Assembly: GCF_932294415.1 (NCBI RefSeq)
Contig: NC_065537.1
Location: forward strand, 67,718,290-67,782,289
From: Quercus robur
Taxonomy: Eukaryota > Streptophyta > Magnoliopsida > Fagales > Fagaceae
Reading direction: 5' to 3'
Length of the DNA stretch: 64,000 bases
Translations under genes and position numbers: made by a program
The notes under the pieces: model-generated
Told to the model about the DNA's origin: nothing
What the model saw: the letters and a program-made list of their open reading frames with translations, nothing else
Database searches by the model: none
Part shown: positions 6,776-58,970 of the stretch, in pieces
Position numbering within the stretch: the first letter of the stretch is position 1
Layout: each line of letters begins with the position of its first letter

Positions 6776-6826
6776 AACTTGTTTTATTTATTTACCAAAA
6801 AAAAAAAAAAAAAACTTGTTTTATTT
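6776..6826 (+). mobile_element. Micro-retroinsertion: ATTTACC plus poly(A), 14-bp target duplication
   Basis: A 23-bp insert (6790-6812), ATTTACC followed by 16 A, sits between perfect 14-bp direct repeats AACTTGTTTTATTT (6776-6789 and 6813-6826). The insert contains no other sequence. Confidence 0.8.
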
Positions 6827-7163
6827 TCTTATTGAAAAAGCTTGAACTTGTTCCTAGGCTAATTGCTTATTCTATTCTTATATAAAGTAACCAACATTAC
6901 TAAAAAAATTTAACTCTTCACAAATCTATACTAATAATTAGTAACTAAATTATAGTTGAGATTTTACTATTAGAGTTAACTAGATGTATTACTTTCATTT
7001 ATAAACTAATATAATATGAATGATTCGTTCATATTGGCCATCAGTTTGTAAATGAAAGGCAGTGCTGAAATTCAATTTGGTAAACTGCTGATTTTCACTA
7101 TCGAAATTAGTACTCCATGAGATCTTTTACTGTATCTTGGACATAACGGGTATACTTGATAGC

Positions 7164-7217
7164 TAGGAAGTGAGCTGATTTTTTTTTTTTTTTCCCCGAA
7201 TAGGAAGTGAGCTGATT
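7164..7217 (-). mobile_element. Micro-retroinsertion: TTCGGGG plus poly(A), 17-bp target duplication
   Basis: A 20-bp insert (7181-7200) reads TTCGGGG plus 13 A on the minus strand. It lies between perfect 17-bp repeats TAGGAAGTGAGCTGATT (7164-7180 and 7201-7217). Confidence 0.8.
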
Positions 7218-7481
7218 GAGTTAAATTGTTCTTGATAATCCATACTGCATCATTACTACTCTTACTCTCATGACAAAGTACATGGTCAACTCCAATTATT
7301 TTTTGTAACAACCTTGGACTTTGATGTTTAGCCTTCATTTGTTGAAACCAAAAACACTTCAAAACAAAATGTGCAACTTCTCACTTCGTACCCCAAAAAA
7401 TCCCTGAACCATGCAATGATCACACAGTTTCCCTCGAGTTGTTTGTTCATCACAGTTCCAATAAAAGAGATGAAATGCAAT

Positions 7482-7652
7482 TGGACTGAAAGGACAGAAA
7501 TAAACCGAAATGAACCGAATGGACCCAAGTGGACTGAAATGGACTAAATAGACCGAAATGGATTGATTGAACAAAAGTGAACTGAAATGGACAAAAGTGG
7601 GTGGAATGGATGGAAGTAGACCAAAATAGGTTGAATGGATCGAAGTGGATGG
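7482..7652. repeat. Degenerate short-period tandem repeat (GGACTGAAAT-like)
   Basis: About 170 bp consist of variants of an 11-13 bp word such as GGACTGAAAT, GGACCGAAAT and GGATGGAAGT. Open frames across it on the minus strand (7328-7694) are a by-product of the repeat. Confidence 0.75.
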
Positions 7653-7699
7653 AAAGAAGTTAAGAACATAGCAACTATAAATGCTACGTTTCAACTTTT

Positions 7700-8590
7700 A
7701 GATATTATATAGATAACTTCACATTTCCAATGTTTATTTGTTTATGCTTATGCTTATACCCTCACCAAGCAATATAATGTATTGTCTATAATTTGATAAG
7801 ATCCAGAAGGTAAAGTAATCATGTGGTCATTCTAGGTTACATTGCAATTTAGAGAACACCTTCTGCTAACCTACCAATGATCTCTGGTTTTCTCAAAATT
7901 ATTTCCCAAACTCAGAAAATACATTTTTTCTTTTCAAAAACACACTTCACTTAACCCATTTCATCCTTATGCATTATTTATAATGTAGAAATTCAAATAC
8001 ATTACAATGTGACATTTTACCCCAAAAACCAAAAGCCAAATTTATTTTACGTTCCATTGAGTAAATGACATACAATTTTAAGATTTTAAGATGGGCATTG
8101 TGAGAGTTCCTAACACATTTTCCATACATAATCGAACCTTAAAACTCATATTTTTTGTTATAGTCATGATTTTGACTCTCAATTAGGCTAGGAGACCCCG
8201 AGACTTTCCTTAACCTAGGTTTGATAAAAAAATCAAAAGAAAAAAAAATGATTGATGGATATTTCATAAATCATGAAATCCCTAACTAGCCACCAATTTA
8301 ACTCCCTATATTTCAGAGCATATAGAAATTGCGATTTTTTTTCTCACGCATATACTTTATTCTTAAAAGGGAAAAGATTAGGTACCTAGTATAATTAACC
8401 AATATCTATAATTTCATTGTATTTATTTTTATTTTTAATTAGGGGTTATTTAACTTATTTAAGAAATTATAGTCCCATCTAGGTTGACTTAATGAGCAAG
8501 TCTTTTTTACAACTCAACACTCCGAGTCTATGAGTGCACTCTTTGACGGTTAAGTAATACATAACCTAAGTATCATAATGTGGTTTGGAC
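7700..8590. other. AT-rich spacer without recognisable genes
   Basis: No coding signal, RNA gene or clear repeat is visible on either strand. The last 30 bp (TATCATAATGTGGTTTGGAC) resemble a unit of the minisatellite found after the copia element at 13.9 kb, which suggests the element inserted into that array. Confidence 0.5.
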
Positions 8591-8592
8591 AT

Positions 8593-8818
8593 TGTTGGAG
8601 AATTTTAATATTAATTAATTAAAATGAATAAATATTACAACTTAAATGTAAAGATGTGGGAGTGAATATGGAAGATAAGGAGTTAGTGAAAATTTTTAAT
8701 CCCACATTGAAAAGGAGAGAGACTATTTTATTCTTTTTAATTGTGATGATTAATGGGTTAATATGAATTGAATCAGATATTGGGTTAGATACGTGCGTTA
8801 GGGGGAGGTGAAGGGTGG
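8593..8818 (+). repeat. 5' LTR of the copia element
   Basis: It starts TGTTGGAGAATTTT and matches 13657-13882 throughout. The copies stop agreeing after GGGTGGAGGT, so the LTR ends near 8818, where the primer-binding-site-like AGGTATCA begins. A terminal CA is not visible, so the exact end is uncertain. Confidence 0.85.
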
Positions 8819-8859
8819 AGGTATCAAAAACCGGTAACAAAGTTTAGCAGTCCCCTTTC

Positions 8860-11406: not shown

Positions 11407-11457
11407 TAAAGCTAGACTTTTTTTCTTTTTTTTTTTTGATACAATAAAGCTAGACTT
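11407..11457 (-). mobile_element. Micro-retroinsertion in copia RT: TTGTATC plus poly(A), 13-bp target duplication
   Basis: A 25-bp insert (11420-11444) reads TTGTATC plus an A-rich tail on the minus strand, between perfect 13-bp repeats TAAAGCTAGACTT (11407-11419 and 11445-11457). Removing it and one repeat rejoins the RT frame (KARLVAK), so it arrived after the copia element. Confidence 0.85.
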
Positions 11458-14990: not shown

Positions 14991-15037
14991 ATAACTGTGT
15001 ATTTTTTTTTTTTTTATGAGATAACCGTGTGTATTTT
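14991..15037 (-). mobile_element. Probable micro-retroinsertion: CTCAT plus poly(A)
   Basis: An insert reading CTCAT plus about 11 A on the minus strand lies between imperfect repeats ATAACTGTGTATTTT (14991 onwards) and ATAACCGTGTGTATTTT (15021-15037). The repeats differ by a substitution and a 2-bp indel, so support is weaker than for the others. Confidence 0.5.
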
Positions 15038-17218: not shown

Positions 17219-19420
17219 GGGTCTGTTTGGGAGTTTATAAAGGAATGGAATGGAATGGTCATTAAAGGAATGGAATGGAATGGAATAGAATGGAATGGAT
17301 TTAGTAGGGAAAGGAATGGAATGGAATGTGATTTAAAAATCTTGTTTGGATGTTATAAAATAAAGGAATGGAATGGAATGGAAAGTAAGTAACACCGTTT
17401 GGGAGTGACATTGGAAAGAATGGAATGGAATCATTTTATAATAACATTACTATTATACTCCTCATTTTAAAGAACATAAAAAATAATCAATGAGAACTTA
17501 TAATTGCTTTGAAATGCTTAATATTTTGTGGATGATGTGAAACTAGTTAGCCACAATTGGGTCTGTGTTAGATTATTGAATTACAATATTGTTTTGTCAA
17601 GGTGAATAGATTGTATCACGCTAATCAATAATTTAACAGATGAAGATAATGGCATGAAAAATTGACAATAGTACAATTTCTTTATTTCGAAGTTCCCAAT
17701 GCAACTAATAATGATTCTTTCACCACTATTGTCTTGCAGACATCCCACAATAACACTAGATTCACAGCCATGGCAGCAAAGAGAAAGAGGGGTTTCATAC
17801 TTTTTTTGAGGAGTAATATGTCAAATACTTTAATAGTAGCAGACAAAGTGGTATAAAGTATATATCACAAAGTGGCATAAAAAAATTTATATTAAAAATA
17901 ATCTACTCCAACTTATTAAAGTTCTAAACTACTATTATTTTAATTAAAATACTTTTCATTTTACTTTCTTCTCATTTTAAATTCTTTTTACTCTTGTTTT
18001 TTTCTTAACCACTCACCTGTCCTTGTACACTAGCTTTAACATCTTAATAAGTTGTAAACAAATGCATAAAATATATTATGTATATATTTTGTTTAGACAG
18101 AAAGGGAATTGACGTTGATAAATTATAACATAGATTGATGGATAGAAAAGGGAACTATCTTGGTTTGATATTGGTTTTGTTATTTGCATTGCAAGAATTC
18201 TGTTGTGATTTCATGAATAAGTAGTGGGCAATTAATTTGTTTGAATTATTTTTGGCTAAGAATATATTCAATGAAATGCCTTGATTTGAATTTGGGCAGA
18301 GTCATGTTACTCGGTCCTAAGCTGAATCATTTTCATGTTCAACATTAATAGTAAAAAAATAAATATCTATGCTAACTCAGTGTATGATTTTCTGCAACAG
18401 TGCATTACTTTCTAGTTTCTTCTCATTTAAATTTTTTTTTACTCTTGTTTTTTTCTTAACCACACACCTGTCTTTTGTCTAAACTTGTACACTAGCTTTT
18501 GTAGACATTTCCTTTTAACCATACACATGGTGAAGCCTTGGAGCTATTAACTAATTGGATGGTTGACTTAAAACTGCAAGTGTAACACACCACTTGCTTC
18601 GTAAATAACAGAAGAATCAAAGAGGAAACAGAGTAAAAAGCAAATTTGAGTTCTCCAACGGTTCTCAGTTTCAAATTCACAGCAGTTCTACAACATTTTT
18701 CCAGCAATTCTCACTTTCAAATTTCTAAATACAATTTTTTTTTAGCTGTACAGGTAATAGGAGTTTTCGTTTCTTTTCACTTTCAAGGTTTTTTCGTTTC
18801 TTTTCACTTTCAAGGTTTTTAGTTGTACATAAGGTAGTTTGTTTTGGTTTTTAGGTGTACAAAAACACTATATATCACTCTCATGAATCACTAGCAAACA
18901 ATTCATAAAAATAAAAATTAAAAAAAAAAGAAAAAAGAAAAAAGAAAAGACTAGCAAACAACCGAAAAGAAAAAGAAAAAGATAGACATACTTGGTTTGA
19001 GCAATATCTGAAAATTGCAGCAAAAAAAAAAAAAAAGGCCAGCGGTAGCAGCTTCACTTTGTAGAGGACTGAAAATATTGTGCAAGAATTATAGCTTTAT
19101 TTTTCTTACAGCTGAATGAGAAAAAAAAGGCTGATAGTAAAGGGGTATTTTAGGGATTTTAACAAAAATTTCATTAAACCTAAATTCATTCCCTCTCATT
19201 CCTCCCAATTTTGAGGGGAACAAAAATTTGAGGTTTTAAGGGAAAAGGGAGGAATGAGCATTCCCTCCTAACGATTCCATTCCCTCCCACTTAAACTCCC
19301 AAACAAGGGAATGGACATTCCATTCCCTCCATTAAAACTCCCAAACAAGAGGAGGGAAGAATATTCTAAAAATATTCCTTTTATTCCATTCCATTCCATT
19401 CCCTCCTCCCAAACGGAGCC
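17219..19420. mobile_element. PIF/Harbinger-like non-autonomous element, 2.2 kb, with GGAATGG-rich ends
   Basis: The ends are GGGTCTGTTTGGGAG (17219) and the inverse GGCTCCGTTTGGGAG (19420), 13 of 15 identical, with TTA duplications at 17216-17218 and 19421-19423. GGAATGGAATGG arrays fill the first 200 bp and ATTCCATTCC arrays the last 200 bp. The interior is AT-rich, with an 83-bp internal direct repeat (17966-18048 and 18416-18499, sharing CTCTTGTTTTTTTCTTAACC). No transposase frame is visible. Confidence 0.75.
18890..18961 (+). mobile_element. Micro-retroinsertion: TTCATA plus A-rich tail, 12-bp target duplication
   Basis: A 48-bp insert (18902-18949) of TTCAT followed by A-rich sequence with scattered G and T lies between perfect repeats ACTAGCAAACAA (18890-18901 and 18950-18961). 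The impure tail suggests age. Confidence 0.7.
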
Positions 19421-23360: not shown

Positions 23361-23712
23361 GTAGCAGACAAGAAGAAGATAAGCCACAGCTCCACAAAAC
23401 AACCCTTTTACTTGCTTACAAGCTAAATAAGTTAAAGATCTTCTTTGTACTGTCATTGTCTTATAAGCTGTTGACCTTTCAGTAATAGGATTTTAAGTAT
23501 TATTGAGAAAGAGGTGAGTAGCAGACAAGAAGAAGATAAGCTACAGCTCCACAGAACAACCCTTTTATTTGCTTACAGGCTATATAAGTTTAAGATCTTC
23601 TCACTGTCATTCTTTTATAAGCTATTGATACTTATCAAAAAAAAAAAAAAAAAAAAATTAAGCTATTGACATGTCAGTATTAGTTTTTTAAGTATTATTG
23701 AGAAGGTGAGGG
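23361..23712. repeat. Tandem duplication, 157-bp unit, second copy carrying a poly(A) insert
   Basis: Copy 1 (23361-23517) and copy 2 (23518-23712) share GTAGCAGACAAGAAGAAGAT, CAGCTCCACA, AACAACCCTTTTA and TTAAGTATTATTGAGAA. Copy 2 is longer because of the micro-insertion at 23629-23658. Confidence 0.85.
23618..23669 (+). mobile_element. Micro-retroinsertion: TACTTATC plus poly(A), 11-bp target duplication
   Basis: A 30-bp insert (23629-23658), TACTTATC then about 21 A and a T, lies between perfect repeats TAAGCTATTGA (23618-23628 and 23659-23669). The sister tandem copy (about 23460) lacks it, giving an empty-site control within the same locus. Confidence 0.9.
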
Positions 23713-23851: not shown

Positions 23852-23897
23852 GTCTTCTTGGTGTGACTTATAAAAAAAAAAAGTTTTTTTGGTGTGA
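23852..23897 (+). mobile_element. Micro-retroinsertion: CTTATA plus poly(A), 15-bp target duplication
   Basis: A 16-bp insert (23867-23882), CTTAT plus A run, lies between GTCTTCTTGGTGTGA (23852-23866) and GTTTTTTTGGTGTGA (23883-23897), 13 of 15 identical. Confidence 0.7.
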
Positions 23898-23899: not shown

Positions 23900-25365
23900 C
23901 ACTACGTATTAAAGCATATTTTTAGAAACTCTGTTTTGCATTGTAGGCATTGCAATAAGGACCCACACCTTTGAATTTAGCATGAAATGAAAGTCATTTT
24001 TCCAACAGTCTGGAGGATTGAAGAAGATGCACCCTCAATGTCAGGACTGATCCTCCTTTATGGGCTTCTGTTGTTGCTAATACCACTGGTATTTTATGAG
24101 ACAAAGATTACTGTCCCAGAGAGCCATCTATGCTTCATGTGTTGATTATCACATTTGAGTGCAACAGTTGGAAGGTGAAACTTTTATGTCATGGCCGACC
24201 ATTTCAACAAACAGAAGTAGTATATTTCAGGAATATGATAAAAACAAACATAAATGTGAGTAATGGTAGATTTCATTCTATGATATCCTTTGATGCCTTG
24301 ACATATGTAATGTACTGATCTTCGTATTGCCCTTATCACTGTTTCCTCTCAGGAGATGGTTTCTGTTTTAGAGCATCAGCATTTTTCTTGATTATTTGCC
24401 ACTGATTAACATGACTTCCATAACCTCCTGATGTTGGCAATCAGTGTAATTTGTGTACTCAATTTTCCAATGTTAGCAAAGCTCATATGCTTGGATGCAT
24501 TGAAATTGAACTTCTTACATTTCTTATGGCTGTCAGATGTCTCATTAATCTGAGTTTCCTAGATTTTGATTCTTTTTAAAATATTAATGGTTTCAACTAT
24601 ATTTGTGGATGTGATTTTGCCCCTTACTTTGGACATTGAAAAGTTTGCGATTGTTATCAATATGGACACTATTTTCGGTTCTGAGGTTCGTTGGATCTTA
24701 GTTAGGATGTGAGGGAACCTTTCTTAGAAGTTCATGCTTGGGACTTCTAATGATCTGTCATCACTGATGCTTTTACATTGCGTGCAGTTATGATTAACCT
24801 GAATCACTGGCTGCAAAATAACTATTGAAACTATTGATGGCATGGATAGGAACATAGAATGGATTGATGTAGATCAAGAGCTTTGGTGTCAGACTTCATG
24901 ATGCATTCTAGAATTGTGAAGTTCGAATAGTGCATCTAGATGAAAAACACATGGTAAGCATATTTGTATATTGCTATTTCAAAAACCAGGGAAATTACCC
25001 CATCTTTAACCCAACTGACCTGCAATAGCTGAGTATTTGGATGTTTAAGCTTATCTCTCAATTTCATAGTATGGAGAATTAATTTGTATGTTTCTTGTAT
25101 ATCCTATCATATCATCTTTATTTCTTTCTCCCCCCCCCCCCCCCCCCCCCCCTTCTCCCTCCCCTCTTTTCGGAAGGGGGGTTATTAAAATTTAAGACTT
25201 ACCTTGGAACCTTTGATACACAAAAAGGACCTTTCAACAATGTTTTGGGTTTTGATTATCTTTTTAAATATTTTCTGTAGACTCTTTTTTTTCCCCCAAG
25301 AAATTAAATCAAACTTGTTTCCAACAGTCACATTTTTCCCTGTAAGTGCTCTTTTCCTACCTTAT
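23900..25365. other. Gene-free AT-rich spacer with a 23-base poly(C)
   Basis: No exon chain, RNA gene or transposon ends are evident. A pure C run occupies 25130-25152, followed by CT-rich sequence; this is a likely assembly or polymerase-slippage trouble spot. Confidence 0.5.
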
Positions 25366-25369
25366 TCTA

Positions 25370-26577
25370 CCACCTGGAATTTAAAACTCTTGCACCTTCT
25401 GTTTTCTGACCAGGAAATAGAGTTGATCACAAGCTTGCCACTTGGTAGAGGTTCCTCTGATGATAAGCTCATTTGGCCCCATGTATCCTTGGGTATTTAT
25501 TCTGTCAAATCAGGATACAACTTTCTCTTGAAGGAAAAAGTTTCTGCTTCCCTAGACAACTTTCGGCCACCTCAACTTCAAGGGCTTTGGAAACAAATTT
25601 GGACTAGTAAAGTTCCAAACAACGTTAGGAATTTTCTTTGGAGAGGATGTAAAAATGCTTTGCCTGTCAAAACAAACTTAGTAAGGCGTAATGTTTTAGC
25701 CGAGGATGTTTGTGATCACTGTAAGCGACTTCCTGAAGACACACTTCTTGCCGTTTGGTACTGCCCAGAAATAGCTGCAGTATGGGATTCAGCCTCAACC
25801 TGGAATTTTTGCCACTGAACAGATTTCTCCAGCTTCACTGACCTGGTCCAATTAATCATAGAGGAAAATAAGAATTTACAAGATTTTGCTATGCATTTGG
25901 GCACTATGGTTTCGTCGAAATAGACTTCGAACTGAAGGTAAACCTGTTCCGATTGGTGATGTTCTACCTATGGCAAATCAGATTCTTACAGACTTCTTGA
26001 GAGCCAACCCAGTCAATTCGGGTTCGACCCCTACTGTCCAGAGAAGCCAAGTACAATTTTCTAAACCAATCCCTCCCTTGGTTAAGATCAATTTTGATGG
26101 CGCTGTGTTCCAAGATCTCAGCAAAGCAGGTGTTGGTGTTGTGGTTCATGATTCACATGGGATGGTTTTAGCTTCAATGTCCGAACAGATTCCTCTTACC
26201 AATTCTGTGGCAGAGGTGGAAGCCATTGCTGCTGTGAAAGCTGTAAACTTTGCTTAACAACTCTGTTTCTCTTCGGTTGTTTTTGAAGGTGCTTCCAAGG
26301 TAGTCATCAGAGCACTATGTAGTGAAGATGAGTCTTATTCCTCTTATGGTCACCTTATTTTTTAGGCTAAACTTTGTATGGCTTCTTTTAATTTCTGGCG
26401 CTTTTCTCATATTCGTAAACAAGGTAATTGTGTTACTCATAACCTTGTTAGACATGCTAGACATGTTAGCGGTCTTCTTGTGTGGATGGAGGATGTTCTT
26501 CCACACATCAACTCTATTCTCTTAGTCGATTTTGGTTATAGATTATTTTAATTGAAAGTATCTCTTTCTCAAAAAAA
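25370..26577 (+). mobile_element. 5'-truncated L1-type LINE: RT zinc-binding domain and RNase H-like end
   Basis: The frame 25370-25818 reads the zf-RVT region typical of plant LINEs: YSVKSGYNFLL, LWKQIWTSKVPNNVRNFLWR and CDHCKRLPEDT. After a stop and frame change, 25886-26257 reads an RNase H-like domain (KINFDGAVF, GVGVVVHDSHG, AEVEAIAA). After a TAA at 26255, decayed sequence follows with CVTHNLVRHARHVSGLLVWM. The element ends in TCTCTTTCTC plus seven A at 26561-26577. RT and endonuclease are missing. The 3' end matches the tail of the micro-insertion at 32244-32258. Confidence 0.88.
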
Positions 26578-32175: not shown

Positions 32176-32515
32176 TGCATGTAATCAATATGCTTTGGAC
32201 AAGCATTATATCCAAAGCTAGCATAAAATATTTCTCCAGATATTTTTTTTTGAGAAAGATATTTCTCCAGATATCGTATACTCAACAAACCAACTTACTA
32301 ACATAAATAAACTTCACACCGCAAATGTTGTCTAGTTCATTTCAATGTTACAGCCAAACATAAGACAATGGGTAATTCTCTAAAAAAATATTTCCCAAAA
32401 AATTGCATTATTTTTCAATCAGAACATACAAAATGTTAAATGAATTTAATTATACTTAAAAATGGACAATGATTTCAACTACTGCATGTAATCAATATGC
32501 TTTGGACAAGCATTA
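32176..32515. repeat. Perfect 33-bp direct repeat, 307 bp apart
   Basis: TGCATGTAATCAATATGCTT and the 13 bases that follow are the same at 32176-32208 and 32483-32515. The flanking sequences do not match. Too long for chance, and no transposon ends are visible. Confidence 0.85.
32228..32274 (-). mobile_element. Micro-retroinsertion: CTTTCTC plus poly(A), 16-bp target duplication
   Basis: A 15-bp insert (32244-32258) reads CTTTCTC plus eight A on the minus strand, between perfect 16-bp repeats ATATTTCTCCAGATAT (32228-32243 and 32259-32274). The insert is the same as the very 3' end of the L1-type element at 26564-26577, which identifies a likely source family. Confidence 0.9.
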
Positions 32516-33255: not shown

Positions 33256-33298
33256 AACTTTTTGTACTTATCAAAAAAAAAAAAAAAAACTTATTGTA
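33256..33298 (+). mobile_element. Micro-retroinsertion: CTTATC plus poly(A), 11-bp target duplication
   Basis: A 21-bp insert (33267-33287), CTTATC plus A run, lies between AACTTTTTGTA (33256-33266) and AACTTATTGTA (33288-33298), 10 of 11 identical. Confidence 0.75.
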
Positions 33299-34545: not shown

Positions 34546-34844
34546 TTATCTATACATTTAGCAAAAAGTTTTTAACAAAAAGTTGGATAAACTAGTCTAA
34601 ATGGAAAAAAAAAAAAAATTAATAAGATAGAAATTCTACTCTATCCTAATCTAAGTAGCATGTTTAGTAGCGATGTTTAAACAATAATTTTCAATATTTA
34701 GATACTGAAAACTATAGGCCAAAAAAGAAAAAAATGTGTTTGGTAGCGATGTTTTATTATAAGTGTTTGAATTATAATTATCAAATTATGGCTTGTAAAG
34801 TATGTATTTTGAAAACTCGTCCATATAAGTTTCTAGTTGTCTAA

Positions 34845-40909: not shown

Positions 40910-43415
40910 AAGTACTTCAAAGTTTTAATAATCATCTTCCCATGGTTGTATTGAGCTATGCTGGGGAGATAAAACTTTTTTCACATTCTATTTCACAAGA
41001 ACTTGTTGAGGTGCCAAATTATGACTTGTACAATATTATTTTCACATGTATCTTTCATTAACACCATAAATATGGTATCTCAGTAGTAGTGAAAAAAATT
41101 GTTATATCAGATTTGTTGTGGATGTACTCTTATAATCTTTGAATGCTATGCCTATATTCCTACCTCCAAAATCATCTAATGTTAAATAAAAAATTGGGCA
41201 AGCATTTAATAGGGTTATATGTGTGTGTGTGTCAAAGAAGTACCACAGTTCTGGCCCAAGAACTAGCAGAAAAGAATAGTTATAGAACTATGTAAATGCT
41301 ATAGCTTTGACTTAATAGGTAACAATAATTACAAACTAGCATCAAACAACTTCAACCCATGATCCATTCCTACAAGCAAACCTTAATCTAAGAATCCAGA
41401 AGGGGTAACAGCAATGGCAACTTTTGTGTCTATCATGGGGCAGGTCACTTGAGGAAAACAGAAGACGATGTTGATGTTCAATGTTCTACTTATATGGTTC
41501 TCCCTTAATCGAAGGTCATTTTTGTTTATGCATTTCAATGTATATCTCACTTTTACTGATGCCAATTACCCTTGCAGTTAGCGGAATTGATAAGAAAGAA
41601 TCTGTTAAAGTAGGTGTAAGCAAGGTTCTGTGTCAAGATTTAAGCAAATACTTTCATCAGACGAAGTGGTATTGAACCTCAAACATGTATTTCAATCCAG
41701 TGAACCCATCTTTCTTTTTCCAAAAGTATAAAAACAAAGTTGCTGGAATTCTTAAGCCACCGCTAGTTTGTGCCTCTTTACCAAATAAAACATAGAATAG
41801 AATGCATAGGGACTTAAATGGGAAGATTCAAATGATTGATTTCCATGTTTATTTATTGCAGTGATTCCCAGGAGGTGTATGGAAATGTCATGGATGATTG
41901 GATGCTTAGGTAAAAATCTCAGATAATGTGAAGAAAAATATGACTTGCATTCCAAATGAAGAAAAAAAATAGGTAAAAATAAGTCAATAATAAGGTTTGG
42001 AACTTTTGTTCTTGGTAAGTGATAAAATTTGGAACTTAGCATGTCATAAATTAGAAAAATCATTCCAATAACTCATGAGAGCACTTGAAAGTTGAAACAC
42101 TGAAAAAATTTAGGGGGAAAATAGGTAAAAATGGTAAACTATTATATGACGACATAAAAAATAAAAATTAAAAATTAAAAAAAAGCATTCACATGCCCTT
42201 TTTATTTTGGGTAAATAAGGATAACAGAAACAAGCCCAGTGGGTCAAGTTATAGGCCAGTCCATTGATGGATATGGGGCAAAAGGAAAAAAGATACATCA
42301 TCAAATATATAACAATTAGACTAAAATATTAGCAGTCATTCAATTATATAATATAATGTTAGTCAATGAGAACTCTTTTTTTAAGCTGACTAATTAAGTA
42401 TCATTAAACAAAAATAAAAAGACAACAAAAAGTTAGTCATGAGATCCAAACTATCTTCATCCTCTAAGAGAACAGAAGGGATAAATGAGATCGTTCAAGA
42501 AGAATAATTCTAAGCAGGGAGTCAATCACATACCTAATTTCACAAATTGTTAAGTTGTGCAACTGTGAATGGTGGAAATTTTCTGCATTATGCAATCCAC
42601 TACTTCACACACCACTCAAAATTACACAAGTCAGCAAATTGTGAAATTGGATGTGAGAATGATTGTGTACAAGAAGCCCAGACAGTACGTACAAGAAACC
42701 CAGATAGCTAGCAAATGGGCCTGAACATTACAATCCTTGTTAACAAAATGAATTTCCCAAAAAGAGAAATTGAGCAACTTCAACATGATATCAAGAATCA
42801 AAGGTGCTATTGAGTATACATGTGTGACTAAAATCCCACATTAAATAATAATAAATATTTAATATAACATAATTGGTCCAAACTCATAAGTTTAAGTTTT
42901 TGGAGTATGGGTTAATAACACAATATTTTTGCATGGAGAAAAATAATTAACTTTGTGGAAAAAAAAAAATGTAGAACGGTATCCATTACTTCCCTCTTTT
43001 GGGTTAAGTTGCTATTGGGCCCGAGCTATTTAAAGTCTTGAACACTTAGTGTTACATTTTAGGGCAATGATGCTCTTACACTTGTTTTTGACATCTAATT
43101 GTTTATTTATTTATTTCCACTTTCATGTTTTAAATGTAGACATTCTTTTCCTTGTTTTTTAAAATGTGAACATTTCCACATTAAATGTGGATATTTATGT
43201 AAAATAGTAGATATAAACGAATTAGAAGATATTTTTCCTCTATTTTATGCTTTATCATATTTGTATGAAATTTAAAATGCTTGCCATTTTTTCTGTGTTC
43301 ACATTTTAAACATGTTTCATCCACTTATTCCATTAGTTAATTTTACATGCCGTATGGGTTCTGTTTTAAATGAGATTGAAGATATAACCTCTAAGCAGAC
43401 CAATCTTTGAAACAA
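39606..43415. other. Spacer with SINE-like block, AAT microsatellite and poly(A)
   Basis: The start is the 3' UTR of the FAR1-related gene. A SINE-like block is listed separately. An AAT microsatellite lies at about 40717-40747 and a run of 37 A at 40871-40907. The stretch 41575-41675 begins after a good acceptor (CCCTTGCAG) and has an open frame (VSGIDKKESVKVGVSKVLCQ), but no partner exon was found. Nothing else gene-like is seen. Confidence 0.45.
40440..40650 (+). mobile_element. tRNA-derived SINE-like block
   Basis: A box-A-like stretch (GTAGTAAGGGAAAGTGCC) and a box-B-like stretch (AGTTTGACCCC) are spaced about 50 bp apart, as in Pol III promoters. A GC-rich body and an AT-rich end (ATTAAAATAAATAAATAAAT) follow. 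No clear target duplication was seen. Confidence 0.5.
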
Positions 43416-44776: not shown

Positions 44777-45490
44777 CCAAAACTAAACTGAATGGTGAAA
44801 GACTATTCGACTAATCATGAGTGACACTTCATGCAATTTTTGAAAATATAAAGGTTAAAGATTTTGCAAGCAAAGACAACAACAAATATGACATATATAA
44901 TAATGGTTTTACATTTTAAATTTTGATCCTGAGCTATGTCATAAGATCATAAAGAAATAAGGAGACTAAACTAAAAAGCTATACATGCATTTGATTATGG
45001 AATGCAATGTAGAATTAAGCCACGCATTCAAAAAAAAAAAAAAAAATGGTAAAAGGATCTAGCCCTGAACTCTCTAATATGCCCAGTGGGTGACCAAGTT
45101 GACATCACTAGATCTCAATCCAACCCCAGAGTTGCCAAAACTAAACTGAATGGTGAAAGACTATTCGACTAATAATGAGTGACACTTCATGCAATTTCTG
45201 AAAATATAAAGGTTAAAGATTTTGCAAGCAAACACAACAACAAATATGACATATATAATAATGGTTTTACATTTTAAATTTTGATCCTGAGCTATGTCAT
45301 AAGATTATAAAGAAATAAGGAGACTAAACTAAAAAGCTATACATGCATTTGATTATGGAATGCAATGTAGAATTAAGCCACGCATTCAAAAAAAAAAAAA
45401 ATGGTAAAAGGATCTAGCCCTGAACTCTCTAATATGCCCAGTGGAGTGACCAAGTTGACATCACTAGATCTCAATCCAACCCCAGAGTTG
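44777..45490. repeat. Tandem duplication, 358-bp unit, nearly perfect
   Basis: Copy 1 (44777-45134) and copy 2 (45135-45490) differ at only a few positions by eye and in the length of an internal poly(A) (about 17 versus 13 A). The high identity suggests a recent event. Confidence 0.93.
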
Positions 45491-49500: not shown

Positions 49501-52500
49501 TGAAAATTTTAATTCCAAAATATTCTCCACACCATGACATTAGCTAGCTTTCAACCTTTTCCTTAAGAAAACTTGATCAGTTTTTTGGCTAGTTCACTGG
49601 GCAAGAATCAGATGGAATTATGTTAGTGACTCACAGTTATATTTTTTAATTTTATCTATTTATTCAGTTTTACTACATAGGCAAATCTAGAACTCATTAG
49701 TCAACTCCCTGTGTAGAAATAAAGAAATTACATATATGATGAATGAGGACTGATTTAAATATAAAATTGGCAGAGATGACATACTATTGTAGCAACACAG
49801 ACAATATAAGGTAGAAAGTTGTGAAGCCTTCCTGACCAGAAAAAAAGAATACAAACCTCATCAATATCCTCAAAGTAATCATCCCCTATTTTTAATGTCT
49901 TTCCAAGACGAAGCAAGCTTGTAATATTGCTGTGATCCTTTCCCCCTTCGATGATGTCTTTGTGCACAAAAAATCCATCACAGATTTTCAGAGTTAAAGT
50001 AAGATAAGATGGACCTCTGGCACTAGGGCGAAAAATACATTCTCCAGCATCCTTATTTGAGAGGAACTACTCAACAAAATACACAAATTAATGCCTATCA
50101 CCAATTCAAAACTCCATGACAACGAAAAATTGAACAAGCTAAAAATTGCATCATGAATAACTCACCTCCATTGCTTGATTCAAAGTTAGATTCTGAAAAT
50201 GAGGATGAACAATCATCCTTGGGTTGAAAGGCTTCTTTGCTAGCTCCCCATTGTGGGCTTTCCCCTGCTGACTTCGTAAACTGCTCTGGCCTCCATGGTA
50301 ATAAGGGTCTGCTTCAGAAGAGTTTTGGTCTCCATTACTCTTTAATTCACTTTTTTTACAAGTCAGACACACCTGGAATTTGTCTTTTTCTACTTGTTTG
50401 ATCTTGCAGGTAAGAATATCACCTACATGCAGCTTGTCTGCTAAAGAAATGTCATCAGCATTATCTGAAAAGTCTTCCTCTACGAGTACCCCAGTCAAGC
50501 CTGAGTCAAGCACACAGAATGCTCGATGAGATTGCAAATTGCGAACCATTGCCTGGACTATTCTTCCTTCAGCAAGAGCATTCCCATTTTTTCCAGATAC
50601 CATATCAAATTCCTCATCCTGAGTTGGTTCTTCATAAGGCCTTCGAGGATCTTGAAATCCATGAAGAAGTTCCATTCTAATATCATAAAGAGTCTCTCTT
50701 CTGTTTTCCCCCATTTCTATTTCATATTTTTCTGAATAATCAGTAATATCAAAACTTTTTAGCAGTTGTGGATTGTCATTAATGTACTGTACAGGCTCTT
50801 CCAGGGAATCTGCATTAATTGCATCATCCTGAACATGAAATTTATGAACTGCCTTTGCCAAATCCTCTGCAAGACTATATGACTCAGGGTGAATTCTTGT
50901 ATTATCCAACAGATTAGTATCTTTGCCAGTATAATGCAGTCCACTGCAACAAACTCGTAAAAAACCAACTGCATTATAGAAATCGTTCTTTCCTCTCAGT
51001 CCGCAACTAATTAAGTCTCTTCGATTTCTAATTTCTTTACCTCCAAGTAATTGCCTCTGTAATGAAGCCACCTTTCTAGGTCCAAGCCCAGAAATGAATT
51101 GCAAAGGCGCAAAAAGCCAGGCATGGCTTGCAGCCAAGTTCAAGTCTAGACCTACCTGGTTAGTAACATCCACCATAACCCGTTCTATCATCTCCCACTT
51201 CTCATCACCTGTAAGATAGTGATCCAAGGAGCTAAGTTTCCAAGATACTATCTCTCTTTGGGCCCCACATAATGTTGCAATCATAGCCAACGGGTTCTGG
51301 AGGTAACGACCGAGAGCCACAGCACGCTTTACAATGCCTAAATGATTTCCAAAATAAAGGCAACAGTAAACAATCAAGTTAATTAAAAGAAGATATCAAG
51401 AAACAAATGTAATTACCTGGTTGTCCAGGCAGCTGTTCTGAGGAAATCTGTGAATGTTCATAAATATGGGCAAAGGATTCATCCCCATAAACAACGCTGA
51501 TCTCATCCATAACTTGGCTGATATCTCCAGTATTCTCCTCTACCCTTTTAAAAATGATCTGATCAACAGGAATAACAACTCACAATTTCATATTGTCTAA
51601 CTAAGAAAGAAGAAATCAAAATGATTATAGAAGAATAGGAAAATATACATCATATGACAAGTCAGTGAAGTCATGAATGTTAAGTTGCAGTAGCATCCAT
51701 CAAATAAAATATGAAATGTTAAGTCAGTGAAGTCATGATGTTAAGTCATGAAAGCAAAATACACGTTCTCTTTATTCTTTACACGCATACCAAATATATC
51801 TTGTTTACTATTTGACTCATGTTTTGTGTATAATTTTACAGTTAAAAAAAACTATTATGAAATTTTTATAGTTTTTGGATGAGATACTTATTGATGATAT
51901 CTGAGAAGTAAAAGTTACACAAGGTTCAACTTTAACCTATGTCTCTTTCTCTCTCTCTCTCTACTTTTGACTACATCATGTAGTGAAAATATTGTTGTTC
52001 TAGATATGAATACTCAGTTCTTCATAACTAGCACAGCAAAAGTTACTATGTTAAATTGTTCTAGATATGAATACCTCTTTGATATCATCCTTCAACCGTG
52101 TGCAAGCCACATTAGCAGCACCTAAGACAATGACATGTGGATGATAATTTTTCATGAACTTAAGAACATGCTGTTGGTCATTCTTCCTCTGTTGCTGGTG
52201 AATAACATTTTGTGACCGTTTAGTAATTGACCCAGCATGCAACACATCAAGCACTTCTCCTGAAGAATCCAACATTACAAATGTAGTTTCTGGCTTTCCT
52301 GGACCCCAACAACAGGCCATTACCCTTGGTGCAATACCTTTATTCTCATCAACAACATTTTCCTTACAATGATATGGCGCCACAGAGACCCTGTTCCAGA
52401 ACTGCTTCCCATATTCTATAAGTAACCAGTTTTTTGCTCGGGTGGTCAACAGAGCTCTTGCTTCCTTCTCCATAGAAGGAAGAAGAAAATTTTTAATTGC

Positions 52501-55500
52501 ATCCTCTAGAATTATCTTGCGCTGTTCGTTCCAAATTTGAGCAGATCTATTATCATTGTCTCTAAGATAAACATCATAGGATGCACTAATCAACTCATCC
52601 AGGGCATTCTCTGGCAACTTTATGGTAATTTCAAGGAGCTTCTCTTCTTCCGCCTTCTGAATAAGAAGCCACTGCATGTCCTCAAATTTTGAGAGTGGTT
52701 TGTTGTGTAGCCACTTGACCCCTGCATACTGATGAAAACAATCTATTTCCTTGTTTCCTTTTGGGGTAGGGCTTGTTGAGACTAGAGCTCTATCCATGAA
52801 AATACCACGGGCATGTTTCCTAAACAATGTCTCACAGCTGATATCCACTGCGGCCTGCAAAAAACAAAAAAGGTTAGCAAACAAAACCAACCAGCCCCTC
52901 AAAGTTATGCAGGATCAAAGACAAACATCAAGAGCATACCATGTGCCTAGCACCTTTGAGCACTGCTTCAGGAGTTTCAAACATTTCACACATAAAATTT
53001 GAAGCTATCTCCTCTGGAAATTCCTCAGGATCCTCATCAAACTTAAATCCCTACAGTCAGAAGAAGCCAAATTATGTCTTACACATATAAATATTAAAAC
53101 AAAAACATGGTAATAAAAGAAGTTTATACACTAGCGAACATACAGTTCTCTCTAAAGTTATTTGGAAGCCAAATTGCTTGGAGTCACCAAACTTGTGTGC
53201 AAGCTCCCACAGGCCAGCCTTATTGCAGTAGCTATATTGTGATTTCTTTGCAGGCCTCTTATATTTTCCACCATTGCCCCCCTCAGTTGGAGGAAAATGT
53301 ATACTAAACTCCATGTCCACATCATCAACATCTCTCTCAGATTCAGCCTTCTTCAGAGACTTGATGGTGGTTTCAAAGAGCTCCTTAATAAAGGCAAGCC
53401 TTGCCCCACTGACTATATTGCTACATTCCTCTTCATAGCGCTTGTTATAGTACCTCTGAAGAGCACTCTTCCGCTTCTGAAGATGTAACCACTTTTTGTC
53501 AAGCTCCTTGATGGCCCAAAGAACCTGCACAGAATACATTCACTTGGATTATGGAAACAATTTATCCTGTTTATACGTTATATCCACTTCCTACTTTTCT
53601 TTTCTTCCTCTTCTACAATGACTCATGCTACATGAATAAGGTGGCAACGGCAACATGTAATTTGTATAGCCCCTCAATTTTACTAAGGTTATAATTAAAA
53701 GAAGAAAAAATTAAAAATAAAGAGTACCTTGTGCCACTTCAGTTTAGGCATTCTCTCAGCATCAACCTTATCCCTGCTTTCTTCATCTTGCTCTGGGTCT
53801 TTCAAGAGACTCAGGCACTGCTCCTTCCGATACATAGCAATAAACGGAATCTTGGAAAAAAACAAAAATTGCTAATTAAAAGGGGCAATTCAGAGTTTAA
53901 AATGGGATTTCACTTTAAAGCTACTGATACTTACATCACACTTCTCCACATGATGCAATTTCAAAAAGCTCATAATGTCTTCCTTACGAATTCTTTTACA
54001 TAGGTCAAATCCTTCAGCTTGTTCCGGCATCTTGCAGAACAATGGATACACATACGTCCCAAGTTGACCAAGTATCCAAGAACACTCCTCTATAATGCTC
54101 ATTTCGTCAACTGGAGCAGGCCCAATGACTTCCCCAAATATCTAAGAGTTGAAACGTAGGAAGAATTAATTCCAGAGTAAGAATAAGATGACATTTTGGC
54201 AATTAACTACCATTATCAAAGACAATAGACCTGCATCCTCTCGGGCAAGTCAATCTCCTTTATAATAGCATCCTTCTCTGTCATGTACTTGTCTTTGAGG
54301 ATGAAAGGTGCAAAATCATTAGAATCATCAGGTCTGGCACTCTCAGCTATAACTTGGTCATGAAGATTCAGTACTTCATCAGCATTGCCAAAAGTGTAAC
54401 TAGCTTCCCCTACTGCAGATGAAGCTTTTGATGCATGCCTTGACTTCTTTTCATTCAGATTTCTTTGGCAAGAAAGAGATTTGTAAGTAGAACTTGCAAA
54501 AAAGAAAAGAAAAAAAAAATGAATAACAAAACAATTTTTTTTTTTGAAATATGTAATTAACAATTAATCATTTATAAATAACAAAGTAAGCAGGTGAATC
54601 AAAATAAGAATTACAAGAGTAAATTCAAGGGGCTCATGCTGGCATAATACCTTATGGGGGCTCCCTTCCCATAAAATTTTCCATGATCCACTATAAAATT
54701 TGCCATTTCATCCTCTTCATCATCAGGCACGTATTCATCTTCTTCAGCAACATCACTAAATAGTGGTCCTGAAAAGACCATTTTAAATTTTTTTTTTTTA
54801 AGAATTTTATGATAGACATTCTAATGTTAGATTTTTAAAGCACAATTTTGAATCATTAACAATGTTATGGATAGTTTTTAACCAAAAGAAACGTATATTG
54901 CAAATGTCTAATAAGCACCAAGTGTTTTCAAGCAAATTGGTCCCTACTCAGGCAGTCCTCAAGCCAGGTAATGGACATCTTTTTTACTTATAAAAAAAAT
55001 ATAATGGACATCTTTTTAGAACATTGAACTAAATTGAAGAAGTTATAACTACAGAGAAACAATTACCATCGTCATCTGAAATGCTAGAGGGCCCTTCCAG
55101 TTCAGTGTCAACCCCAACCTTTTTGAGCCGCTTAAACTTTGCACCTCCCTATCAGTGAAACAAAACATGATCAACAAAATATGTATATACCATGTCAACA
55201 AGGATAAAAGGAACAAAAAAGATGATGGCACAAAAATTCACCTTCTCTGATTGAATAATGCTCAAGTTTTCATTCTCTCGAATCAGCTCAAGATCGTCGT
55301 CATCAAGCATAAGACTCCTCAACGATTTTCTAAAGAATTTCAAAGCAAAATACTTTATAACATGAAAGTAAACCACATACTTCAAATCACATTGCAGAGT
55401 GGGTGGAAAAGATTATCCTAACCTTTTCCTTTTCCTCTTTTTCTTTTGTTTGCCTTTATAGCTTTGTTGTTCTTCCTCCGATTCTTCTTCTTCTTCATCA

Positions 55501-56899
55501 TCATCATTATCATCTACTAAAAACCCATCATCCTCAAACTCATCCAAATCTTCTTCTAATCAAACCAATCAAACCAAATTCAATAATTATCAACAACAAT
55601 TAGATTATAGCAAACAAATACAACAGCTATACCAGCAACACCCAACTCACATTAAGTCACTAACATCATCATTACCGTAACAATACTAGAAACAATAATA
55701 ACATATGGCAAAAGGCTTAAATCTTGTTATATACTCTCTCAAAGCATGATTTAAACCCACATCGTGGGGTGTGTGCATAAGATGAGTGTGCAAATAACCT
55801 GTGTGTGGTAATCATTACTCACAATATAAGCATAAAACAAATTATAGAGTTGAGGGCACAGAAACCGAGACCATATATTGCTTAAAGGAATATGTTACTC
55901 TTTAAAAGCAATTAAGTGGGTTTTATTGCATTGGAAAATAATAAAAGCAAATAAATAAATAACTCTTTAGCTCAAAATTGTGCGACTCCCTAAAAAACTA
56001 ATCAATTGCAATAAAACACTCAACTTTAACTAATAAACATTAGCACTTGATAACCGGATTCTTACTTGACCCAATACTTGGACACTGAACTCAAATTGAG
56101 TGTAACTTTGACAATCAAAGAAAATGGGAGTGGAAAAGCAAAAATAAATAAACAAATAAAATACATTTTTTGAAAAAAAGCAGGGACACAATAAATTATA
56201 AAACGTTCACGTTCATAGAAATTTGAAGGCAAAAAAAGATTACAAATTTACAAACCCAACAGAGCGAGAAGAAAGAAAAATTATATAGAACAACAAAAGA
56301 GAACTAGCCAACTAGGAGCATTCAAAATATCGCATTATCACGTCAAATGAAAATATCGCGAGATAACATTAAATGCAGTGATACGAGACGATGATAAACA
56401 TGTCTATATATATCGCATGCCGGAAATGATCATTTCGCCGGCGAAAACTCGCCGATAGTACGGACAAAAATATTTAAAAAAAAAAAAATTTAAGAAAACA
56501 TTAATGAAAAGCACTTATTGATTATTAAGTAGAACAAAAGCTAAAACCAAAAAACCAAAACGAACACACATAGTGACAGAGATAACAAAGAGTCCGTACG
56601 GTTAGAGCTACATCAACTTTTCAAAAAGAAACGTATATATATAGGAAAGAATAAACCGTAAAAAGCTGAGATAAAACTATATATGTTAGTTATATTTATG
56701 TATACCATCGTCTTCTTCGTCTTCGTTGTTGGAAGCTACAGCTGGTTCGTTTTCGTCTGTGAAACCAAAAAAAAAAGCATAGAAAATATGAATTGGTTTT
56801 CGCATATAATGTGTGTATGTGAAAAGAGAGAGAGAGTATGGATTTTTAGGGACCTTCATCATCATCGTCGACAATGCGTGACCTTCTCTTCCTCGCCAT
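46569..56899 (-). CDS. SPT6L: SPT6-like transcription elongation factor and histone chaperone with WG/GW tail
   Basis: SPT6 travels with RNA polymerase II, reassembles nucleosomes and binds the phosphorylated Pol II linker. Seventeen exons fit by splice sites and phase: 56854-56899, 56706-56756, 55423-55555, 55242-55329, 55067-55148, 54651-54768, 54231-54462, 53935-54141, 53728-53850, 53144-53524, 52940-53050, 52075-52854, 51417-51558, 50166-51337, 49857-50066, 48805-49255 and 46569-48398. Start is MARKRRSRIVDDDDE. Approximate domains: acidic N-terminus to residue 170; helical core 250-520; YqgF-like 650-830 (HPHVIVLGAANV); HhH near 913 (ISGLGPRK); S1 about 1100-1180; tandem SH2 about 1205-1400 (ECIFRPSARG, GISYEHPGTFIL); RG- and WG/GW-rich tail from 1442, predicted to bind Argonaute. 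Read literally, the last exon stops at 47953-47955 (1,590 residues). Five C at 47956-47960 replace the four seen in sister repeats, and one base fewer would open the frame to 46569 (about 2,051 residues). Confidence 0.95.
47953..47960 (-). other. One-base frameshift site in the SPT6L WG/GW tail
   Basis: The plus strand reads TATCACCCCCAA, while the parallel repeat at about 47489-47498 reads TATCACCCCAA. In the coding sense GDWG is followed at once by TGA. With four C the frame continues GDWGDS and stays open with WG/GW repeats for about 1.38 kb. Either a real truncating allele or a homopolymer error. Confidence 0.85.
54969..55017 (+). mobile_element. Micro-retroinsertion in an SPT6L intron: TACTTATA plus poly(A), 16-bp target duplication
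   Basis: A 17-bp insert (54985-55001), TACTTAT then an A run, lies between perfect 16-bp repeats TAATGGACATCTTTTT (54969-54984 and 55002-55017). It sits in the intron between exons 5 and 6 and leaves the splice sites alone. Confidence 0.9.
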
Positions 56900-56999
56900 A
56901 TTGTATGTTGTAGGTGATTCTCAGAAACCCTAACCCAATGGTTTTAGAGAGAGAGAGAGAGATTGAATAGCAGTGTTGATGATAGAGTGGAGTCAAGTT

Positions 57000-58090
57000 T
57001 TAGAGAGAGAGAGAGAACAGAAATGGAAAGAGAGAGTACCAGACCTCAGGCTTTTTCTGTTGTTACTTGTTATGCCATTTGCGTGTGCTCCATACTACTA
57101 ATTTACCAAAACACCCCTATTATGGGTCTGCTGCTGTGATCATGCCACGTGGAATAACAATGGAGATGGAGTTGGTGAATCTTGAGCTGGAGCTTGCTTC
57201 GGAAAAAACCTTATTTATGCTTGTTAATTTAGAAAATAAGCCTTAACTTTAAGTTCGATTATTAAATGAGCCAAGCTCAAACGTAGTAATGTGATTGTGA
57301 ACAAACTCGTGAACATGATTCACATGAAGATTCAATTTAACTATATAGTATAATATTATATTTTATGACAAAATTTAGGTTCAATAATTTATGTATTGTT
57401 CTTTAAGTTCTTTTCCTAAAATTCATCTATATACTTAACTAAAAATATACTTCAATTTTATGAATTCTAAGATGAACTTAAAGAACGTCATCTAGGTATT
57501 GTACCTAAATTTTGTTCATATTTATATGCATATTTGTCTAAAAATATATTTATATAGACTTGAAATTATATTGAATAAGGTTTTCAATAGGTTCATATAA
57601 TATTAAATTATTATTTAAAACTTATTGATATATAAAAAAATCTATTTGTAATAAAAATTTATAGAATTATAAAAAGTAAAACATTTTAGACATGATTTAC
57701 AATATATATATATAATATTAATCAAGTAACTTATAAACATCATCGAGTTTGCTAGAAAAAAATATGAGCTAAGCTTGACATAAAAAAAGCCTTGTTTCAT
57801 AAAATCTTGTGGGAGAGAGGAAGGAGGGGGGCATAAATGTCATTTGATTGGAACTGTTTTATTGGGGGTACTAATGTCTAATACTATATGGTACTAGTAC
57901 AAGCTAGGAGAGCATATGGGCAGGCCACCTGGCAGAGCGTATCACAATCAGTATACGTTTTTGGTAAACAAGACAAGGACACTGTATTGCTGCTGTTCTC
58001 CTACTTTATTACCCTTCAATTTTATGGCCAATATTCCTCTACCAACTTATTTAAATTAATGTCATTGGCACATTTTAAGGCTACCCCTAT
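57000..58090. other. Intergenic region upstream of SPT6L
   Basis: It contains the SPT6L leader with GA runs (about 56949-57015), then AT-rich sequence without coding signal. It separates the SPT6L start from the tandem paralogue's end together with the next two entries. Confidence 0.5.
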
Positions 58091-58092
58091 GG

Positions 58093-58970
58093 TCTATTTA
58101 TCTATTCCTTTCTTTCTTTTTAATTAGTTAGGAAAAAAAAATTATTTTTATTTTTATATTACATGGATTCGTTAACAGTAACACAGTTTCTATTCCACAC
58201 TCTTAAGTAAACTATCTTGTACCATATATTACCTCTTTGATATATTATATGATTTCTTAATTAATCTGGTTTAGTGGTATATATGAAAAATCAATTACTT
58301 AAAAAGTAATAGAAAAGTATAAACTTACTCATTTGCCCATATCTTGGTCAAATTTGCTCTTCCAATCATAATATATTTGGTTCTTTTGATATGGGATGTT
58401 GTTCCTATTGTTTAGAGTTTATTATCAAGGTTGAGGCAAACAGTTCTGTTTCTTTGTAACTTCTCTTTTTCTTTTTTCTTTAATAAATACTTCTTTCTCA
58501 TTAAAAAAAAAAAAATTAATTAACATGGGAGATCTTTATCTATTCCTTTCCTTTTTTAATTAGTTAGGGAAATAAATTTTATTTTTATATTACATGACTT
58601 TACTAATGACCCTATTTTTATTATGTACTGATTATAATATGTCTCATTTATTCCTTTCATTTTATTTGATTAGTTCGAAAATTTTTATTATGTACTAATC
58701 ATGACATGTCACATCGACAATTATAAAACCCCTATAAGTCAATTTTACATTGTTTCTCTACACGTGAGTTCTAACTTCTTTCATAAAAAAAAAAAAAAAA
58801 AAAAGTTCTAACTTCAAACTTCAAACTCTTTAAAGTAAACTTTCTTATACCATATATTATCTCTTTAATATATTACACACAATTTCTTAATTAATTTGGT
58901 TTAGTTGGTAGAGATGAACAATCAATTACTTAAAAAAGTAACCGAAAAGTAAAAATATACTCATTTGCTA
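58093..58970. repeat. Diverged tandem duplication, about 430-bp period, with LINE-like 3' end between
   Basis: Shared order: TTTATCTATTCCTTTC, TTTTTAATTAGTTAGG, ATTTTTATATTACATG, then AGTAAACT.TCTT, CCATATATTA, CAATTACTTAAAAA and TACTCATTTGC (58093-58340 and 58528-58970). Between the copies, 58380-58513 resembles a truncated L1 3' end (ACTTCTTTCTCATT plus poly(A)). Confidence 0.7.
58767..58815 (+). mobile_element. Micro-retroinsertion: TTTCATA plus poly(A), 12-bp target duplication
   Basis: A 25-bp insert (58779-58803), TTTCAT plus an A run, lies between perfect 12-bp repeats AGTTCTAACTTC (58767-58778 and 58804-58815). It is present in only one copy of the surrounding duplication. Confidence 0.85.

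Follow-up and report, generated by a model that had tools for sequence, protein, structure and literature searches.

Very small insertions, each made of a body of a few nucleotides and an A-rich tail set between direct repeats, form a recurrent class in the oak genome. They duplicated their targets, carry their tails at the 3' end, have bodies of a narrow length range and recur in a blind sample of the genome. The reading that fits them best, and that is very probably right, is target-primed retroposition that ended about 7 nt past the tail.

Results

The window analysed here is a 64-kb stretch of DNA, in which an earlier note had described a recurrent tail-only class in both orientations, with seven perfect repeat pairs among ten full members and two weaker ones. 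The class was confirmed and sites do lie on both strands; the perfect pairs are genuine but number eight. Each site consists of a 5–8 nt body and an A-rich tail between direct repeats, one in each flank, with 0–2 bases between the end of the tail and the second target copy, and the added length stays below 50 bp at 10 of the 11 window sites. Duplications at the eight perfect sites (6.8, 7.2, 11.4, 18.9, 23.6, 32.2, 55.0 and 58.8 kb) are 11–17 bp long. On the + strand, site 6.8 (6778..6826) has CTTGTTTTATTT at 6778-6789 and 6815-6826 (12 bp, or 15 bp with three upstream A absorbed) around the body ATTTACC (6790-6796) and A18; site 18.9 (18890..18961) has the 12-bp duplication ACTAGCAAACAA, the body TTCAT and an impure A-rich tail of 43 nt; site 23.6 (23618..23669) has the 11-bp TAAGCTATTGA, the body TACTTATC and the tail A21 T; site 55.0 (54969..55017) has the 16-bp TAATGGACATCTTTTT, the body TACTTAT and the tail A8TA; and site 58.8 (58768..58815) has GTTCTAACTTC (11–12 bp), the body TTTCAT and A20. 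On the − strand lie site 7.2 (7164..7215; TCAGCTCACTTCCTA in insert sense, 15–17 bp; body TTCGGGG at 7194-7200; A15), site 11.4 (11407..11455; GTCTAGCTTTA, 11–13 bp; body TTGTATC at 11438-11444; tail A12GA7) and site 32.2 (32228..32273; TATCTGGAGAAATAT, 15–16 bp; body CTTTCTC; A9). A minus-strand match at 54980 is site 55.0 read in reverse and was rejected.

The other two sites named as full members fared differently. Site 23.9 (23852..23896, +; GTCTTCTTGGTGTG/GTTTTTTTGGTGTG; body ACTTAT, or CTTAT with a 15-bp duplication; A11) has a near-perfect repeat (12/14) and passed the 225-tail scan described below. Site 33.3 (33256..33298, +; AACTTTTTGTA/AACTTATTGTA; body CTTATC; A-tail) stands by hand alignment only, with 10/11 matching; its right copy begins within the A run, for which reason every scan missed it. 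As to the weaker members, site 15.0 (14991..15030, −; ACACGGTTAT/ACACAGTTAT, 9/10 matching; body CTCAT; A14) passed at the low score of 7, and the one at 27.0 kb passed no scan and was rejected.

The window counts were set against controls. Among 130 runs of at least 7 A, nine reached a repeat score of at least 11, where flank swaps gave 0.21. The tail-only class accounts for six of the nine; the other three, at 34.7, 41.9 and 34.47 kb, have bodies of 42–49 nt. The 41.9 kb site is a longer-bodied insertion of similar build (41907..41980, +; TAGGTAAAAAT; 44-nt body; A8), that at 34.7 kb a candidate (34661..34754, +; TGTTTAGTAGCGATGTTT/TGTTTGGTAGCGATGTTT; 42-nt body; impure A tail), and that at 34.47 kb was rejected as a 61-bp tandem array. 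A second scan, of 225 tails, found seven sites with 5–8 nt bodies and scores of at least 11 against 0.05 expected from flank swaps, site 6.8 having been removed by a filter. The window has 43 exact repeat pairs; 11 of them enclose an A/T run (0.2 in Markov sequences), and eight of these 11 are the perfect sites. The 3' position of the tail is partly built into the definition of the scans, and the mirror scan is its actual test: the window held no mirror match with a gap of 5–8 and a score of at least 9, its best mirror score, 9, coming from a simple repeat.

The class recurs in 20 random 10-kb stretches (200 kb) of the same 786-Mb genome, picked before inspection. The genome-wide excess over control for which the earlier note had asked was found: this sample yielded 15 sites with bodies of 5–8 nt and five with bodies of 9–20 nt (each against 0.0 expected), and none with bodies of 0–4 nt. 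Counted at equal stringency, sites occur once per 8 kb in the window (8 sites over 64 kb, site 6.8 among them) and once per 13 kb in the sample (15 sites over 200 kb), a lower density than the one per 5–6 kb first estimated. Scores of at least 9 with bodies of 5–11 nt gave 23 sample sites, with duplications of 10–19 bp including absorbed A; like those of the perfect window sites, these lengths fall in the variable range of about 7–20 bp typical of LINE target-primed reverse transcription. At that score and gaps of 5–8 there were 17 direct matches versus one mirror match; the mirror scan returned 19 matches in all, of which four were the same sites in reverse and one, with a gap of 5, was independent.

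Bodies at the 23 sample sites measured 5 (2 sites), 6 (3), 7 (7), 8 (5), 9 (3), 10 (2) and 11 nt (1), 7 nt being the commonest. Exact repeats of at least 12 in the sample enclosed bodies of 5–11 nt 11 times, 0–4 nt never and 12–60 nt once, and the mirror scan gave 0, 0 and 0 in the same bins. Ordinary random truncation does not predict a peak at 7 nt and an empty 0–4 nt class. Long-gap matches were rejected as a class, being no more numerous than in the mirror scan (9 direct versus 16 mirror); the scan thus shows no class of the longer insertions that this machinery would be expected to make, although older ones with decayed duplications would escape it. The peak at 7 nt, little emphasised in the earlier note, is the oddest feature of these insertions. 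A hairpin at the LINE 3' end was rejected as a stop signal: shuffled sequences fold just as well (z −0.95), and a block at the hairpin foot would leave 2 nt, not 7.

Empty sites at 6.8, 23.6 and 11.4 kb support insertion. Site 6.8 is empty in two paralogues, L002 and L003. For site 23.6, a neighbouring duplicate at a spacing of 157 bp has a single copy, TAAGCTGTTGA (23464..23474, +), without insert. At 11.4 kb the insert interrupts the RVT_2 domain of a degenerate copia reverse transcriptase: both target copies encode KARL in the copia frame, each piece carries it when read separately, and RVT_2 is matched by the right piece on its own (E 2e-10). Site 7.2 is filled in both paralogues (body TTCAGC/TTCAGCG there), and its insert is thus older than the duplication of the locus. 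L003 has a further insert, absent from the window and L002, with the body CTCCTCT, a T-interrupted A tail and an 18-nt duplication with 2 mismatches. For site 58.8, a diverged repeat at 58.06–58.35 kb has, by eye, one similar copy without the A run, which is suggestive only.

The TT/AAAA nick motif of L1-clade insertions is rare, at 0 of 11 window and 1 of 23 sample sites, which counts against the retroposition reading. An A stands immediately before the first target copy, the start of the duplication, at 24 of 34 sites (p 8e-6), as expected if the primer-end T pairs with the tail.

A degenerate LINE fragment in the window (25189..26577, +; zf-RVT, RVT_3), at which no significant target duplication was found, has the 3' end ...CTTTCTC-A7, and the body of site 32.2 matches this end (26564-26570) exactly. 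Its genomic relatives have similar T/C-rich ends followed by A: in 20 copies examined, 11 of the 19 ends with an A run are TTCTC. This motif lies directly 5' of 9 of 240 A8+ tails in the sample (0.39 expected), not all nine being class sites. Clustering of the bodies with LINE ends, a comparison suggested in the earlier note, is clear in only part of the set: with only the ends related to this one LINE compared, 6 of 23 sample bodies fall within one mismatch (shuffled mean 2.2, maximum 6 in 500), and the 2 of 11 in the window equal the shuffled level of 2.1. The TACTTAT-type, TTCGGGG and ATTTACC bodies of the window have no source among these ends.

Other identities were rejected. No Rfam family scored above threshold in the window, which argues against a structured RNA family, and SINE copies would have a tRNA-, 5S- or 7SL-related head and pol III boxes where these inserts have 5–8 nt besides the tail.

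Discussion

Target-primed reverse transcription with truncation right after the tail, as first proposed for these sites, is still the preferred reading, since it accounts for the duplications, the 3' tail, the occurrence on both strands, the empty sites and the bodies' partial match to LINE ends. We envision that a LINE-type endonuclease/reverse transcriptase would nick the target and prime on an RNA's poly(A) tail, copy the tail and some 5–11 further nucleotides (mode 7), and then lose the template; the stub would nonetheless be joined upstream, and an offset second nick would leave a duplication of ~10–19 bp. The enzyme is most likely an L1-clade LINE, the copying was probably abortive, and some of the sites, at least, appear to have had LINE RNA as their template. 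That in this plant lineage the reverse transcriptase of a LINE has a built-in early stop, regularly leaving its template ~7 nt past the poly(A) even though the stub still goes in with its target fully duplicated, is in our judgement an even bet.

The same mechanism might have used mostly assorted polyadenylated mRNAs as templates, a variant of the main explanation whose odds overlap with it and which we regard as plausible, at rather less than even chances. Among the LINE ends compared, 17 of 23 sample and 9 of 11 window bodies find no match, and mobilisation of mRNA by L1-like machinery is reported in dicots (PMC4838847). Against mRNA templates, however, stand the TTCTC excess at sample tails and, in the window, CTTAT directly 5' of 4 of 74 A8+ runs (0.23 expected); moreover, the compared ends relate to one LINE only, and other LINE families may supply the remaining bodies.

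A very unlikely alternative to retroposition is repair of staggered double-strand breaks, in which fill-in would create the duplication, a few filler bases would be added and A runs would lengthen later by slippage. Break repair with filler is known in plants, 32 of the 43 exact repeat pairs in the window lack an A/T run (many within tandem arrays), and TTTCAT and ACTTAT each have three local copies against 0.54 expected under equal base use. However, filler lacks RNA-like polarity and gives no reason for an A run at the 3' end, and the mirror scans show the inserts to be polar (gaps of 5–8: none in the window, one versus 17 direct in the sample). The enriched TTCTC is a LINE end, and the L003 insert combines a long, interrupted A tail with a near-intact duplication. 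Chance repeats or low-complexity sequence selected by eye might account for the candidate at 27.0 kb and the weak ones at 15.0 and 33.3 kb, but as a source of the class they have practically no probability, being refuted by the flank-swap, Markov and mirror controls, the blind sample and the empty sites.

If the early-stop reading of target-primed retroposition is true, LINE activity would leave tail-only stubs more often than any other product that can be detected. At roughly one per 8–13 kb, which for a typical sample would mean something of the order of 60,000 across the 786 Mb, they would be a main source of A runs and of small indels, overlooked because inserts shorter than 50 bp get discarded. 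Numerous small insertions that at present pass for simple repeats or indels would be products of retroposition, and such reclassification would change estimates of plant LINE activity. The preferred body length of 7 nt singles out one definite stage, at which the enzyme moves off the tail and into the body, and this stage is open to study from genome sequence and in vitro. Since the stubs carry target duplications they also serve as insertion markers, and one already separates paralogues here.

Known systems offer partial likenesses. The available parts of PMC12633430, PMC12934576 and PMC9599045 describe human Alu and L1 inserts of normal size and dog SINEs and do not mention tail-only stubs. 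In plants, nearly every L1-clade LINE with relaxed poly(A) recognition has a terminal poly(A), and it is the RNA tail that these elements are proposed to recognise; the passages of a review on them that were consulted do not mention tail-only products (PMC3747384). L1-like retrocopies in Arabidopsis and cassava have a poly(A) tail and target duplications, and their target motif often deviates (PMC4838847), but they are gene-derived whereas the sites here are tail-only stubs. L1-mediated insertions in human and chimpanzee (PMC2912911) show 5' truncation and duplications peaking at 14–16 bp for full-length L1; that survey took only inserts of 50–10,000 bp, a range that excludes 10 of our 11 window sites, and reports a preference for TT/AAAA that our sites do not share. 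A further likeness comes from human oesophageal tumours (PMC4498532), in which extremely 5'-truncated L1 inserts have down to 1 bp besides their poly(A) and are flanked by target duplications, some being essentially poly(A) alone and the fragments too small to map. There, these stubs are the extremes among somatic inserts of up to ~1 kb, whereas the oak stubs, with no excess of longer inserts, form a class with a mode of 7 nt that is fixed in the reference genome.

Tail-only insertions in the window

We scanned every A-run on both strands, seeking again upstream the direct repeat that begins at the run's end. The scan returned perfect repeat pairs at 6.8, 7.2, 11.4, 18.9, 23.6, 32.2, 55.0 and 58.8 kb (window positions) and a near-perfect pair at 23.9 kb, bearing out most of the sites of an earlier note. 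That note had described about ten inserts, each a handful of defined bases followed by poly(A) and set between direct repeats of 11-17 bp, and had interpreted them as target-primed retroinsertions truncated immediately past the tail. Among its other sites, the pair at 15.0 kb is weak, the one at 33.3 kb was aligned by hand only, and membership of 27.0 kb in the class was unsupported by the scan. Nine pairs scored at least 11, six of them of the tail-only class, against 0.21 per permutation with swapped flanks. With impure tails allowed, bodies (the defined bases ahead of the A tail) of 5-8 nt gave 7 pairs at this score against 0.05 with swapped flanks, the 6.8 kb site having been dropped from the 7 by a complexity filter. 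A hit at 18.79 kb with a 2-nt body is really a 27-bp tandem repeat.

In the impure-tail scan, bodies of 9-60 nt at the same score gave four hits. Two are artefacts (54980 on the minus strand and 34.47 kb) and two are longer-bodied insertions of similar build, with an A tail and a body of 44 nt at 41907-41980 (41.9 kb) or 42 nt at 34661-34754 (34.7 kb). These near-equal lengths may reflect chance or a second stop point.

Empty sites and paralogues

Empty sites identify the events as insertions that duplicate their target. A sequence search with the 6.6-7.5 kb region located two paralogues on the window's contig, at 67.545 and 67.584 Mb. In each, the 6.8 kb insert is absent and the target is present once. 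The 7.2 kb insert is present in both with the body TTCAGC or TTCAGCG, so this insert was already in place when the region duplicated, and the body has changed since. The 67.584 Mb copy has an extra insert (its positions 1997-2074), with body CTCCTCT and an A tail interrupted by T, flanked by AGTACACCCGTTATGTCC and AGTATACCCGTTTTGTCC and found neither in the window nor in the other paralogue. An empty duplicate of the 23.6 kb site lies 157 bp away, with flanks 88 and 85 percent identical, and the 58.8 kb case, read by eye, is suggestive. At 11.4 kb the translation of the left piece ends DGSIDKFKARL, with an in-frame stop upstream that marks the copia element as degenerate, and the right piece begins NKARLVAKGFKQ, its match to RVT_2 starting at the second residue.

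Recurrence in a blind genome sample

From the 785.7-Mb assembly (42 contigs; the window's contig is 86.5 Mb) we drew one hundred random 10-kb stretches, excluding the window's neighbourhood, from portions of known extent in 12 large contigs, and analysed 20 of them, scanning 649 tails. The class recurs there, with the same polarity and body length. At scores of at least 11, observed and expected counts were 15 and 0.0 for bodies of 5-8 nt, 5 and 0.0 for 9-20 nt, 4 and 0.3 for 21-60 nt, and 0 and 0.4 for 0-4 nt. At scores of at least 9 the direct scan gave 31 hits (17, 8 and 6 for bodies of 5-8, 9-20 and 21-60 nt) and the polarity-reversed mirror scan 19, of which four are real sites in reverse reading; an independent mirror hit lies at 3390 of one stretch (L011; gap 5). 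Exact repeats of at least 12, sought up to 8 kb away, numbered 11 direct versus 0 mirror for bodies of 5-11 nt, 1 versus 0 for 12-60 nt and 9 versus 16 beyond 60 nt, with none in either direction for 0-4 nt. Among the 23 sample sites with a score of at least 9 and a body of at most 11 nt, body lengths were 5 (2 sites), 6 (3), 7 (7), 8 (5), 9 (3), 10 (2) and 11 nt (1).

Templates, targets and mechanism

LINE RNA is a likely template for part of the set: TTCTC is in excess ahead of tails in the sample, and some bodies match or nearly match LINE ends. The window's degenerate LINE ends in CTTTCTC plus A7, and CTTTCTC is the 32.2 kb body; the odds that one of 11 bodies matches this end by chance are near one percent. 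Forty of 297 candidate relatives in the genome were scored and 20 ends inspected, among them TGTTTCTC, TCTTTCTC, TTCTTCTC, TCCTTCTC and similar. An A run is present at 19 of the 20, and TTCTC is terminal in 11 of 19. Of the sample's 240 A8+ tails, 9 have TTCTC immediately ahead of them, against an expected 0.39. Six of 23 sample bodies match a LINE end with at most one mismatch, against 2.2 when shuffled (the top of 500 shuffles was 6) and 1.4 ahead of other A8+ tails; the window's 2 of 11 compares with 2.1 when shuffled. CTTAT is common to 4 of the 11 window bodies, which simulation puts at about 0.7 percent by chance, and precedes 4 of the window's 74 A8+ runs against 0.23 expected. However, two of its four sites have imperfect repeats and were picked in the earlier note, and a shared pair among the eight perfect sites is common by chance.

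An A lies directly ahead of the first target copy at 7 of 11 sites in the window (p 0.03) and at 17 of 23 in the sample (p 7e-5). The TT/AAAA target occurs at none of the 11 window sites and at one of the 23 sample sites; dicot retrocopies are reported to depart from the motif in a similar way (PMC4838847).

The analysis shows insertion, target duplication, polarity, body length and recurrence, and we infer the enzyme, the stop and most of the templates. LINE-driven target-primed reverse transcription would copy the tail plus some 7 nt before stopping, with normal upstream completion. The weak hairpin formed by the LINE end fails to explain the stop.

Other features of the window

Genes and mobile elements include mTERF, FAR1/MULE, copia and the LINE with zf-RVT and RVT_3, and point to a flowering plant. 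Tandem duplicates at 44777-45043 and 45135-45401 (99 percent) end in runs of A17 and A14 and show directly how a tail can change in length once it has been duplicated. Some 440 bp of sequence is repeated at 3001-3439 and 30717-31155, 93-96 percent identical by piece, with 27.7 kb between copies, and 23 consecutive C at 25130-25152 form the sole C/G run of at least 8. Near an Spt6-like gene, a 42-bp insert with no A run sits inside a 19-bp perfect direct repeat (51995-52074); break repair or insertion without a tail may account for it. Long Gly/Trp-rich reading frames occupy the minus strand at 46569-48405, downstream of SH2_2 and Spt6 domains, and at 59947-63141, where the DNA has 255-bp repeats. 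The former resembles the Argonaute-hook tails of plant Spt6/Spt5-like proteins.

Comparison with known insertions

Our searches of an open-access library turned up no account of tail-only insertions in plants, and the kind itself is already on record in human tumours, as extremes (PMC4498532). What surprises here is the 7-nt mode. A primate survey was restricted to inserts of 50-10,000 bp (PMC2912911); the length gained is below 50 bp at 10 of the 11 window sites.
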